Shown: positions 26,478 to 35,245 of the stretch, one piece after another
Layout of the letters: every line of letters begins with the position of its first letter
Position numbering within the stretch: position 1 is the stretch's first letter
The notes under the pieces: generated by a model
Databases searched by the model: none
Told to the model about the DNA's origin: nothing
The model's input: only the letters and a program-made list of their open reading frames with translations
Assembly: GCA_919902675.1 (NCBI GenBank)
Contig: CAKKRH010000022.1
Location: 1 to 35,245, forward strand
Length of the DNA stretch: 35,245 nt
Direction of reading: 5' to 3'
From: Omnitrophica bacterium GWA2_41_15
Lineage (GTDB): Bacteria > Omnitrophota > Gorgyraeia > Gygaellales > UBA12090
Position numbers and translations under genes: made by a program

Positions 26478-27566
26478 TTAAGTTCCGCGATTAATATTCT
26501 GAACTATTCCTAAGCTGATAAAAGTAACCAGCAAGCTTGAGCCTCCGTAGCTCATCAAAGGAAGCGGCAGTCCAACCACCGGAGATAATCCTATAGCCAT
26601 TGATATATTAATATACATCTGAAAAGCCAGCATAATTCCGGTTCCCAGAGAAAACATCTTCCCGAAATTATCATCGCTTTTCTCGGATATCCTAAAACAG
26701 GAATAGATTATAAAAAGATAAAGCCCCAGGAGAAATAGGCAGCCCAGGAATCCGGTCTCTTCCGAGAATATCCCGAAGATAAAATCCGTATGCGATTCGG
26801 GGAGAAAATTAAGCTGGCCCTGGGTCCCGGAAAGCCAACCCTTGCCAAAGAGCCGTCCCGAACCCACCGCTATTTTAGATTGAATAATGGTATATCCCGC
26901 CCCCAAAGGGTCAAAATCCGGATTCAAAAAAACCAACAGCCTGTCCCTCTGATAATCTTTTAAAAAATGCCAAAATACCGGGCTAATTATCGCCCCCAGG
27001 GCCAAAACTGAAATAATATAACGGAGCTTTACTCCGGAGAAATAAACCATGCTTAAAAAAATTAACATAAGCAACAGCCCGGTGCCCAAATCCGGCTGTT
27101 TCAATATCAGGCTAAAAGGCAGGGCTATAATCAAAAAAGGAAGCAGCATGCCCCGGAAGAAGGACAGCCGGCGGATATCTAATCTTATTTCACCCAGCCC
27201 TTTACGGCTAAAATAATGGCTCAGGACTAAGATTACAGCCAGCTTAACAAATTCCGAAGGCTGAAGATTAAACCACCATATCTTTATCCAGCGCTGAGCC
27301 CCCAGGCGCGCCCCCCCAAAAGCCAAAACCCAAGTTAGAAGGAATACGGCTAACGAGTAAAAAGGATAGATAAAATTTAACAGCCGGCGGTAATATATAC
27401 GGCTGAAGACAAAAAAAGCCGTCCAACCCAGCGCTATCCAGATTAGCTGACGCAGGAATACCGAGCTTTCGCCAAAGACATTCTTAGGATAAATATCACT
27501 ATAAAGCGTGGCCAGGCTAAGGCAGACAATCAAAAACGCCGCGGCGGGAATAGCGTATTTAGTCAT
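26478..27566 (-). CDS. rodA: Rod-shape SEDS peptidoglycan polymerase
   Basis: About 362 aa from the ATG at 27566, which follows GGAGGA and overlaps the mrdA stop (ATGA). The track's earlier start lies inside mrdA. About ten membrane helices; SEDS motifs include WWFNLQPSEFVKLAVILVLS, LKQPDLGTGLLLM, LSGTQGQLNFLPESHTDFIF and the C-terminal PLPLMSYGGSSLLVTF. It polymerises glycan strands together with the PBP2 encoded just upstream. Confidence 0.96.
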   Translation of the reverse strand: MTKYAIPAAAFLIVCLSLATLYSDIYPKNVFGESSVFLRQLIWIALGWTAFFVFSRIYYRRLLNFIYPFYSLAVFLLTWVLAFGGARLGAQRWIKIWWFNLQPSEFVKLAVILVLSHYFSRKGLGEIRLDIRRLSFFRGMLLPFLIIALPFSLILKQPDLGTGLLLMLIFLSMVYFSGVKLRYIISVLALGAIISPVFWHFLKDYQRDRLLVFLNPDFDPLGAGYTIIQSKIAVGSGRLFGKGWLSGTQGQLNFLPESHTDFIFGIFSEETGFLGCLFLLGLYLFIIYSCFRISEKSDDNFGKMFSLGTGIMLAFQMYINISMAIGLSPVVGLPLPLMSYGGSSLLVTFISLGIVQNINRGT

Positions 27567-29269
27567 ATCAACTTCTCCTCCCGCAAGCGGGAAAAAATCT
27601 GATTCGCCAGCACCACCGAATGAATGCTCATACCGGTATTTTCCAGAAAAACGCAAAAGGCTATCCTGGGCTTATCGTAAGGCAGGAAACCCACGAACCA
27701 GCCATGGGACAACTTGTTATACACCTGGGCGGTTCCGGTCTTACCGGCTACTTTAAGATTGCCCCAACTTCCGATGTTAGCGGTTCCGGTCTCAAAATTC
27801 ACCACCCCTCTCAAGCCTTCGTTAACCGCTTTTATCGCGCTTTGAGTTATTCCTAAATCCGCTCCCGCCTCAGGCTTAATATCCTCATCACCTATCCTAC
27901 TGACAATGTAAGGCTTGACTAATTTACCTCCATTGGCAAACACCGCCATAAGCCTGGCTGATTGTAAAGGCGTGACCAGAAGGTCTCCCTGGCCTATTCC
28001 AAAATTAGCGGTATCACCATCATACCATGACCTCAATTTCATTTTGCGTTTTGAAACCGAAGGCACATATCCTGAGGCCTCGTAAGGAAGATCAATCCCC
28101 GACTGCCTGCCCAAGGCGAATTTGAGAGCGTAATCGGTTAAAATATCCGGACCCAACAAAAGGGCAAGATGATAAAAATACACATTGCAGGAATGCGTCA
28201 TCGCCTCAATGAGATCCTGGGAATCGTGCCTGCTCCAGCAGTTAAATTCCTTTGTCCCCACGCTCAGCTTGCCGGGACAGAAAAACCTCCGCGCGGGGAT
28301 TATCTTTTTTTTCTCTAAGGCCGCCGCCGCAGAAACCGCCTTAAATACCGAACCCAGGGGATATTGCCCGGAAATCGAACGGTTAATCATCGGAGAATCG
28401 GGATTCGAAAAAACGTCCCGGACATAAGCGGAGTTATCCTCCTCCAGAAATGCCCCGGGATAAAAACCCGGAGAGCTGGCCATCGCGATTATTTTTCCGC
28501 TCTCCGGCTCCATCAGAACCGCCGCGCCCTTTTTATTGATCAGGGCCTCCTCAACTATTTTTTGGATCCGGATATCTATGGTCAAATAGACATCCTTGCC
28601 GTTTTGCGAAGGACGAAAACTTACAATTTTATTCATCCTGCCCCGATGGTCAACCTGAACCTGGGTTCCTCCTTCTTTTGAACGCAAGGCCGGCTCTAGG
28701 ATTTCCTCTATTCCCCCGAAACCCACGACATCCTTGCTCTTATATCCGTAATCTCTAAGCCGGGTTATCCTCCAGGAATCAATTTTACCCAGATAGCCTA
28801 TCACATGGCCGGCCAGGTCATAATAAGGGTATTCGCGTTTAGGTAATATCCGTACCGTAACTCCGGGAAGCCTGAATTTGTTCTCTTCAATAAGTATAGC
28901 TGTTTTCTTATCCGCGTCTTTGACGACAATAATCGGGCTGAATGAAGAAATAAAGCCTTTCTCAATTTCCTTTTTTATCCGGGGGACGCTTTTATTTAAA
29001 AGCCCGGCTAATTCCGATATTGTTTTGGGGTTTTTCTTCAATTCATAAGGAATAACCGCGATATTATAAGACATCTGATTATCCACCAGCACCCTGCCGG
29101 ATGAATCCATAATTCTTCCCCTTATTCCTTCCAGCGGCATAACCCGGATACAGTTTTTAACACTTAAAGAATAATAAAACCCACCCTTGACAATCTGCAG
29201 ATAAAACACGCCGCCTATCAGAATTAAAAACAGTATTCCGGTTAAAATCCTAATTTTATCTATGCGCAT
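27563..29269 (-). CDS. mrdA: Penicillin-binding protein 2 (elongasome transpeptidase)
   Basis: 568 aa. An N-terminal membrane anchor (ILTGILFLILIGGVFYLQIV) precedes the dimerisation/pedestal domain. Transpeptidase motifs are PLGSVFKAV (catalytic Ser, SxxK), THSCNVYF (SxN) and KVAGKTGTAQVY (KTG). It cross-links lateral-wall peptidoglycan in complex with RodA, MreC and MreD. Its start overlaps mreD by 14 nt and its stop overlaps rodA by 4 nt, which implies tight coupling. Confidence 0.96.
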   Translation of the reverse strand: MRIDKIRILTGILFLILIGGVFYLQIVKGGFYYSLSVKNCIRVMPLEGIRGRIMDSSGRVLVDNQMSYNIAVIPYELKKNPKTISELAGLLNKSVPRIKKEIEKGFISSFSPIIVVKDADKKTAILIEENKFRLPGVTVRILPKREYPYYDLAGHVIGYLGKIDSWRITRLRDYGYKSKDVVGFGGIEEILEPALRSKEGGTQVQVDHRGRMNKIVSFRPSQNGKDVYLTIDIRIQKIVEEALINKKGAAVLMEPESGKIIAMASSPGFYPGAFLEEDNSAYVRDVFSNPDSPMINRSISGQYPLGSVFKAVSAAAALEKKKIIPARRFFCPGKLSVGTKEFNCWSRHDSQDLIEAMTHSCNVYFYHLALLLGPDILTDYALKFALGRQSGIDLPYEASGYVPSVSKRKMKLRSWYDGDTANFGIGQGDLLVTPLQSARLMAVFANGGKLVKPYIVSRIGDEDIKPEAGADLGITQSAIKAVNEGLRGVVNFETGTANIGSWGNLKVAGKTGTAQVYNKLSHGWFVGFLPYDKPRIAFCVFLENTGMSIHSVVLANQIFSRLREEKLI

Positions 29270-33091: not shown

Positions 33092-34321
33092 TTAATTTAA
33101 ACTATATGAATTATTTTTGCTTCCGTAAAATCTATCTTCCTTAATGATATACCTGCGGGTATCGGCAATGACTAAGGCCTCTTTGTATTCCGGAGATGCT
33201 TCCCTGGCCTCAAACTGTTGAAGTTCAAAGATATCCGCTAAGCAGAGGATAAAGCTGTCTATCTTATCTTTAGTCTCTCCCTTTTCAAAACAGGCGGCTA
33301 AGTATTCTTTGAGCCTTTGGCCGGAGGGAGCAATCCCTCTCCTCACCATATGCCGGATATCGGCTAATTCCTTCTCCAGGTCAAAAGACTCTATCTCGGC
33401 CCTGCTTAACATCGGCAGGCTAAAATCAAGGCCGGTGAAACTTCCCGCCGGTTGAACCAGCATATTCATTTGGCGAAAGTCAATACCACCGATGACTTCA
33501 GGCTTTTTTGTAATTGTAAGCGCGGAACTCGCGATTTCAGGCACCCAGCCAACCACTTCATCCGCGGAATCTTTATCCCTAGATAAATAATATAAATACT
33601 CTAATGCTTTTATGATGTCCACTGACAGATTTTGTAACTGCAGAATAGTGTATTCACCCGTTTCAAAATTAAGCTTCACTTCTCTTATGGTGCCGCCATT
33701 AACATAACTTTCAAAAGTAATGGTTAACGCAGGAGTAGCATCACTAATTTCCCTATAAAAGGTAATATCAACCATTGCCTTGACACTATTGACTTTTACA
33801 TACTTAAAAGTAGTTTTTCCAATTCTTATATTTGCTCCGGATTCAGAATATGATCTTTCAATAGATAAATCTATAAAGACAGATTTTTCTAACTCAAGCG
33901 CCTTGGCCATTATTTCTTCAGCGTTTATAGAATCGCAGAGACTCTCTACTTCTCCTATTGCTTTGGATGTTTTCGCGCTATCTCCCGGAGGCTGCTTAGT
34001 TTTATCAATTAACTTTTTTAAATTTCCGGGCAGTTCCTTGATTTCGCCTAACTTTAAATCCCCTAATCTTAAATTTCTTAAATAGCCTACGACCTTTATC
34101 TTATTTTCACTGCTCAATAAAGATGACAATCCTTCCAGAATTTTCTTGCTTATTACCTCGTATAATTTATCCAAAGATTCAGTTAGCAGCGCAGAGCCGG
34201 CACTCGCGGATGCTGATAAGACCCGCATAATAAGTTGGATCGCTAATACAGATTGACAGTTATCTGCCTCCAGCGGCTCTGAATTGAACAGCTTATTGAA
34301 TCCTTCTCTCTGCCTTTTCAT
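33092..34321 (-). CDS. Uncharacterised protein with Omnitrophota-type C-terminal tail
   Basis: 409 aa, no recognised catalytic domain. The N-terminal part is helical (SASASAGSALLTESLDKLYE), and the middle is beta-rich (about 155-235, for example YVKVNSVKAMVDITFYREIS). The last 130 residues begin GGIDFRQMNMLVQPAGSFTG and continue FDLEKELADIRHMVRRGIAP, SGQRLKEYLAACFEKGETKD and ILCLADIFELQQFEAREASP. From memory, this tail (GGIDFR...GIxPSxxRxKEYxxA...CxxDIxxLE) closes many very large Omnitrophota proteins; that is not searched here. The ATG overlaps the previous stop (ATGA), but the frame is open 39 nt further upstream through a slippery A8 tract, so the start may be by frameshift instead. Confidence 0.75.
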   Translation of the reverse strand: MKRQREGFNKLFNSEPLEADNCQSVLAIQLIMRVLSASASAGSALLTESLDKLYEVISKKILEGLSSLLSSENKIKVVGYLRNLRLGDLKLGEIKELPGNLKKLIDKTKQPPGDSAKTSKAIGEVESLCDSINAEEIMAKALELEKSVFIDLSIERSYSESGANIRIGKTTFKYVKVNSVKAMVDITFYREISDATPALTITFESYVNGGTIREVKLNFETGEYTILQLQNLSVDIIKALEYLYYLSRDKDSADEVVGWVPEIASSALTITKKPEVIGGIDFRQMNMLVQPAGSFTGLDFSLPMLSRAEIESFDLEKELADIRHMVRRGIAPSGQRLKEYLAACFEKGETKDKIDSFILCLADIFELQQFEAREASPEYKEALVIADTRRYIIKEDRFYGSKNNSYSLN

Positions 34322-35245
34322 ATAATATGGCTCTTCATGGCTGTCTTTTTTTTGGGCCCCTTATACCATCCATAGTTTATTATAGGCCTTATCTCGACAA
34401 CAACCCCCTTGTTATTATAATAAACACGCAGTTCTATCAAAGGCAAAAGCGTATTCTGGCCATCCTCAGGCACTAATTCCAGAATCATATATTTGTTCTG
34501 ATTCCGTTCCTTATAATAATCCTTATGTTCGCCAGCAATAACTTTAATACGATACTTAGCGCCTTCAATTAATAGGGAAGCCGGCAACAAATAATATTTA
34601 TCTTTGGTGAAGGCGTTGGTGGGCAGGCCCGCATATGAAACAGGATTTATAGTAAGCTCTTTTCCTAAGATAGCGTTTTCAATGACTGTTTTGGTCAAGG
34701 CTTTCCTCAAGACTTTCTCAGCAAATATATCCGCGTTCAAGTTGGCGTAGAATTCCTTCAGCTTTTCCAGCTCTGATTTTATGGTCTCTTTTGCGTCTTG
34801 AGAAAGTTTCTCTAACTCAACAAAAATAATTCCATAAACCGATTTCCTAAGGCTTGCCAAATCATGTTTAGATGTTATCATTTCTATTATATTTTTAAAA
34901 TAATCTATGTCGCTAAATTTAGCCTTATCTAATTTATTCTTCATCATATCTAATATGGCGCCAAGCTCGTCTTTCTTCTCTTCTAATAAGGGCGAGCCTG
35001 TGGTTTGCCGCGCGAAATCGCTTCCATCCCACAAAACTTCTCCACTGCTATCCCCATCTATCGCCGAGCTGACAATGTTTTCTGCTGGTGTAGTGTATCC
35101 ATTGCTTATCTGAGGTAATTTCGGCATCAAATCTGCTATTCCCCCGCTCATATACCTCCTGATTACCTGTCCGGTAGGGGTGTGCAGGGTTTCAGAGAGG
35201 TTGTATTCGCCTTCCTGGAATGATTTCTGGTAGGCCTTAAAGTAG
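34318..35245 (-). CDS. Uncharacterised Omnitrophota-type large-protein fragment (5'-partial)
   Basis: The track starts this at 35151 (277 aa), but the frame stays open to the right edge, adding about 31 residues (YFKAYQKSFQEGEYNLSETL, then HTPTGQVIRRY). A W/Y-x-K-x-F-x-x-G-x-(Y/F)-N...GQVIxRxYxSGG pattern occurs, as I recall, inside giant Omnitrophota proteins, so I treat it as the end of a longer gene. The codons for IRRY happen to form AGGAGG 5 nt before the ATG at 35151, so internal initiation there is possible. The rest has a helical centre and a beta-rich end (KDKYYLLPASLLIEGAKYRI). It stops 4 nt into the next ORF, just after an A8 slippery tract. No function is recognised. Confidence 0.7.
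   Translation of the reverse strand, partial: YFKAYQKSFQEGEYNLSETLHTPTGQVIRRYMSGGIADLMPKLPQISNGYTTPAENIVSSAIDGDSSGEVLWDGSDFARQTTGSPLLEEKKDELGAILDMMKNKLDKAKFSDIDYFKNIIEMITSKHDLASLRKSVYGIIFVELEKLSQDAKETIKSELEKLKEFYANLNADIFAEKVLRKALTKTVIENAILGKELTINPVSYAGLPTNAFTKDKYYLLPASLLIEGAKYRIKVIAGEHKDYYKERNQNKYMILELVPEDGQNTLLPLIELRVYYNNKGVVVEIRPIINYGWYKGPKKKTAMKSHII
34345..34351 (-). other. dnaX-type -1 slippery heptamer A-AAA-AAG
   Basis: In the frame of the upstream ORF the codons are CCC AAA AAA AAG. A -1 slip on A-AAA-AAG continues as GAC AGC CAT and enters the 409-aa ORF before its ATG, bypassing the stop 27 nt later. AAGGGG, a Shine-Dalgarno-like stimulator, lies 5 nt upstream of the heptamer. No strong downstream stem-loop is visible. 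Confidence 0.5.

Follow-up and report, generated by a model that had tools for sequence, protein, structure and literature searches.

An A8 run at a one-base, probably non-programmed frame break in a large Omnitrophota protein gene

Two open reading frames (ORFs) on the minus strand of this contig overlap around a phased slippery heptamer. Does the site direct programmed -1 frameshifting, as an earlier note on this DNA had proposed, or has a single gene been broken there by other means? The DNA analysed, referred to here as the window, is 35,245 nucleotides long and is the entire contig C22 of a 1.74-Mb metagenome-assembled genome (G000; 58 contigs, 80% complete); the upstream ORF is cut at the contig end, and its N-terminus is therefore missing. 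The nearest named relatives are Candidatus Omnitrophota assemblies. Genes for MreB, PBP2 and two GspE/PilB-like ATPases lie near the frame break within the window. The features discussed below, all on the minus strand, are as follows.

34318..35244: 308-aa upstream ORF, truncated by the contig end; 64% identical to the orthologue on G001:C21 over 303 aa
34357..34362: AAGGGG, Shine–Dalgarno (SD)-like; ends 5 nt ahead of the heptamer; AAGGCG in the orthologue
34345..34353: A8G run, the frame-break site; lacks one base relative to the lysine codons in the fused orthologue
34353-34346: the A8 itself, within the A8G run
34351-34345: in-phase heptamer A-AAA-AAG, inside the A8G run
34320-34318: TGA stop of the upstream ORF
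34318..34321: ATGA, the upstream stop overlapping the start codon assigned to the downstream ORF; the orthologue has no ATG here
33092..34360: -1-frame downstream part; 422 codons when counted from the preceding stop, a 409-aa ORF when begun at the ATG; by alignment, the remainder of the same protein
33095..33490: conserved C-terminal helical domain (GGIDFR...), common to 14 loci of G000 and to many Omnitrophota large proteins
28305..28312: internal control, A8 then G in the same phase, inside the intact PBP2-like penicillin-binding-protein gene 27563-29269

The upstream ORF starts at a conserved block (YFKAYQKSFxxGEYN...GQVIRRYMSGG), encodes the middle of a large protein of an Omnitrophota family, and closes with TAT AAG GGG CCC AAA AAA AAG ACA GCC ATG AAG AGC CAT ATT ATA TGA. 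The in-phase A-AAA-AAG (34351-34345) and the AAGGGG just before it (34362-34357) are where the earlier note had placed them, and its spacing of 27 nt from heptamer to stop is right if TGA is counted; the sense codons that separate AAG from TGA make up 24 nt. The -1 frame does enter the 409-aa ORF, as had been described; it is open from 34360, so that the overlap with the upstream ORF measures 43 nt and not 42 nt.

The evidence that bears most directly on the nature of the break is an orthologue from the same genus, on contig G001:C21 (JAUSCZ010000042.1), in which one 1007-aa open frame runs across the position. The downstream -1 frame is 72% identical to residues inside this frame, and the part that comes before these residues shares 64% identity with the upstream frame. 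The next gene is also orthologous between the two contigs, and the locus is therefore syntenic. In the DNA alignment, the window reads CCC AAA AAA AAG ACA and is one base short exactly there; the relative, of which the earlier note had asked whether it would be fused with A9 or split with A8, is fused but has no A9, reading instead CCC AAG AAG AAA GAC. It thus has neither an A-run nor a slippery heptamer. Nearly all the remaining indels are multiples of three, the exception being a stretch near the start that aligns poorly. In the orthologue, KKK-DSQEKPY.KERQRE corresponds to the -1-frame peptide KKK-DSHEEPY..KRQRE. By this comparison, the two ORFs are halves of one gene that forms a single frame in the sister species, which bears out two earlier suggestions: that both are pieces of one large protein, and that the two are linked through a one-base shift of frame on A8. 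G001:C21 is the one fused orthologue covering the site (n = 1); G002, a third species of the genus, covers the C-terminus alone owing to a contig break.

The ATGA at 34321-34318 might be taken as the stop–start overlap of two separate, translationally coupled genes. However, homology of the -1 frame with the orthologue sets in at the codon that follows KKK, ahead of the ATG, and the orthologue has no ATG at that position, so coupling is extremely improbable. Two wholly independent genes were rejected on account of the fused orthologue.

We consider it highly probable, on the alignments described, that this is an ordinary, non-programmed one-base frame break, either a real mutation or a sequence error, in a large Omnitrophota protein gene. 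Mutation and error were both among the explanations that the earlier note had listed beneath its headline of a programmed frameshift, and it is the headline that lacks support. What distinguishes an indel-disrupted gene or an error is present here: a fused homologue, an unconserved site and a one-base difference in a homopolymer. The locus shares a fused homologue, an unconserved site and a single occurrence with the singleton frameshifts and recent pseudogenes of the GeneTack survey, and differs from GeneTack singletons in that its site lies on a homopolymer doubling as a slippery heptamer (PMC3711429).

The sequence of events would be as follows. Between its conserved N-part and its conserved, helical C-terminal domain, the gene has a variable middle, and it is in a lysine-coding A-run of this middle that the single-base indel would sit; the run may have lost one base through replication slippage. 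Most translation would then stop at TGA 34320-34318 and the product would lack the C-terminal domain; slippage of RNA polymerase or of the ribosome on A8 may let through a small share of fused protein. The dN/dS ratio is 0.35 for the upstream part, 0.43 for the downstream part, 0.20 for the C-terminal domain and 0.09 for the neighbouring gene. Both halves are thus under similar, moderate purifying selection, and the break, if real, would therefore be recent.

Programmed -1 ribosomal frameshifting at A-AAA-AAG has its best-known parallel in E. coli dnaX (PMC5009743), with which the site shares a correctly phased heptamer and a purine-rich SD-like element upstream; AAGGGG is the sole SD-like match ahead of 34 scanned A8-or-longer runs in G000. 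It differs from dnaX in its lack of a stem-loop, its short spacing, the presence of tRNA-Lys(CUU) and the lack of conservation of the site, and also in that the long, ancestral frame is in this case the -1 frame. In pseudoknot-free folding, the sequence downstream of the site does no better than shuffled sequences (z 0.0 to 0.5). The upstream SD of a dnaX-type signal is expected about 10 nt from the heptamer, whereas AAGGGG stands merely 5 nt away and is replaced by AAGGCG in the orthologue. The heptamer itself is not conserved in the one orthologue compared. A dnaX-type signal also calls for AAG to be decoded by a tRNA-Lys(UUU) capable of re-pairing in the -1 frame. In E. coli, the strong slipperiness of A-AAA-AAG has been discussed in terms of a sole tRNA-Lys (PMC5009743). 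By contrast, genes for both tRNA-Lys(UUU) and tRNA-Lys(CUU), the reader of AAG, are present in G000 and in the sister genome, and we infer that the CUU tRNA may lower slippage in this organism.

The frequency of such sites elsewhere in the genome also speaks against a dedicated signal. In a G000 sample of 0.71 Mb containing 488 ORFs (563 kb), the identical heptamer occurs in phase 82 times, and there are 34 coding runs of A8 or longer. Any coding A8 run holds an in-phase A-AAA-AAN heptamer, whatever its phase. Thus, the heptamer at the break is unremarkable, and the feature that cannot be put down to chance is the continuation of the same gene in the -1 frame. An A8 in the same phase and followed by G recurs in several other G000 ORFs, including the intact, essential PBP2 gene of the window, where it is decoded normally and is kept in the sister species (G001:C21 6662-8365). 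No dedicated frameshift device is indicated: with an unconserved site, stimulators that are absent or badly placed and the same A8G read normally in PBP2, the programmed frameshift put forward by the earlier note is very improbable.

Longer runs behave differently. Set against synonymously shuffled ORFs of 300 aa or more, coding runs of A9 or longer number 0 versus about 15 expected in G000 and 1 versus about 21 in G001, whereas A8 runs are near expectation (22 observed versus 32 in G000, 47 versus 40 in G001) and A7 runs are likewise not avoided in the coding sequences of either genome. By these counts, A9 is selected against and A8 tolerated, which suggests that reading through A8 involves no heavy slippage in this organism.

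Transcriptional slippage on A8 would add an A in some mRNAs and restore a useful level of fused protein, whether adventitiously or under selection. The closest parallel is Citrobacter rodentium tssM1, in which an A11 run 28 nt before the stop restores about 20% (PMC4256274). Both are large genes with an A-run frame error just before a premature stop (about 25 nt in this geometry) and a conserved C-terminal part left in the other frame (PMC4256274). Slippage by E. coli RNA polymerase is undetectable below eight A, which places A8 just within range (PMC6260861), and the downstream half is under purifying selection. However, such selection is equally expected from a recent break or from an error, the bacterial cases in one review concern runs of 9 (PMC5009743), 33 other A8-or-longer runs lie in ORFs with no apparent need of slippage, and the orthologue lacks the run. 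In tssM1 the run is A11, slippage has been demonstrated at about 20%, and the fused protein answers a functional need (PMC4256274), whereas the present case is an A8 whose orthologue is without an A-run. A8 falls short of the run length of about 9 or more A/T looked for in such cases and is borderline by PMC6260861. We therefore regard slippage rescue as unlikely.

A sequencing or assembly error, or a strain-mixed consensus, would mean that the true gene is intact with one more base. The source is a metagenome-assembled genome in 58 contigs and 80% complete, the site lies 900 nt from a contig end that is itself inside a block repeated in about 13 loci, and the GeneTack authors expect most singleton frameshifts that have a fused homologue to reflect sequencing error and not a genuine indel (PMC3711429). 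Against this, a screen of orthologous ORFs (0.71 Mb versus 0.75 Mb), which covered about 226 ORFs and about 78,000 residues in each direction, found this to be the sole internal frame break in G000, despite the 34 A8-or-longer runs in the 488 ORFs; at one break per about 226 orthologous ORFs, general assembly indel noise is unlikely and was rejected. Other candidates from the screen were extensions upstream of starts, adjacent genes or antisense ORFs, and were rejected. An error at this one site is a serious but lesser possibility, and within the ordinary one-base break a recent genuine mutation is somewhat favoured over sequencing or assembly error.

The window contig and its sister contig G001:C21 each terminate within the large-protein gene. 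The end of the window contig falls in the repeated block (window 34321-35244 and homologous blocks at about 13 loci), which is probably the reason for the assembly break.

The gene belongs to a paralogous family whose members begin with a stretch resembling a signal peptide, followed by a conserved N-part, a middle that varies, and a helical domain conserved at the C-terminus. The C-terminal domain occurs at 14 loci in G000 and an N-part motif at about 22 loci in G001. Omnitrophota are known to carry large, poorly annotated ORFs (PMC10066038), and no family in Pfam or NCBIfam matched the large protein above cut-off. The structure that AlphaFold predicts for the C-terminal domain (pLDDT 79) is helical and gave no significant match in the PDB. 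A weak sequence match to PPR proteins was limited to 39 residues and is not regarded as a sign of homology. Between the window (33095-35244) and the locus L017, dS falls from 0.72 in the upstream part to 0.46 in the variable stretch downstream, 0.26 across the C-terminal domain and 0.19 for the neighbouring gene, which suggests that recombination or diversification may act in the middle of the large-protein genes.

Roughly 5 of about 58 family members are broken, the window gene included (the denominator is approximate, a hand count from match lists). Three have one in-frame TAA in the variable middle: L099 (G000:C45, 244-3486), L100 (G005:C57, 1321-4512) and L101 (G006:C22, 2931-6641). These stops are at unrelated places in unrelated contexts, and a conserved read-through was rejected. 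A further member, in G001:C3 93353-96860 (L088 and neighbours; the broken member is 93353-96430), shows at least two frame changes relative to the intact homologue G000:C1 65280-69638, one of them at CGCCCCCCCTGAG, a C7 run. The positions of the breaks are unrelated across the family, so relaxed constraint or turnover fits better than a shared recoding signal.

Broken relatives, one of them at the C7 run in G001, and a family of 14 to 22 copies are also what might be seen if a secreted or surface protein were phase-variable through reversible changes in homopolymer length. However, the orthologue has an interrupted AAGAAGAAA and not a run, the remaining breaks are in-frame stops at unrelated positions, and A9 is avoided in coding sequence, making phase variation improbable. 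Equally little credence attaches to a broader proposal, in which the 14-22-copy family would be a contingency family, breaks in the variable middle (A8, C7 and in-frame stops) would switch the C-terminal domain on or off, and low-level slippage would give two product lengths.

If the break is an ordinary one-base indel or an error, as we think most probable, it illustrates how a textbook-looking slippery heptamer joining two ORFs can be the automatic by-product of an indel in an A-run. The uncharacterised family to which the gene belongs, with its many paralogues, conserved ends, variable middle and several broken copies, may be of more interest than the break itself.
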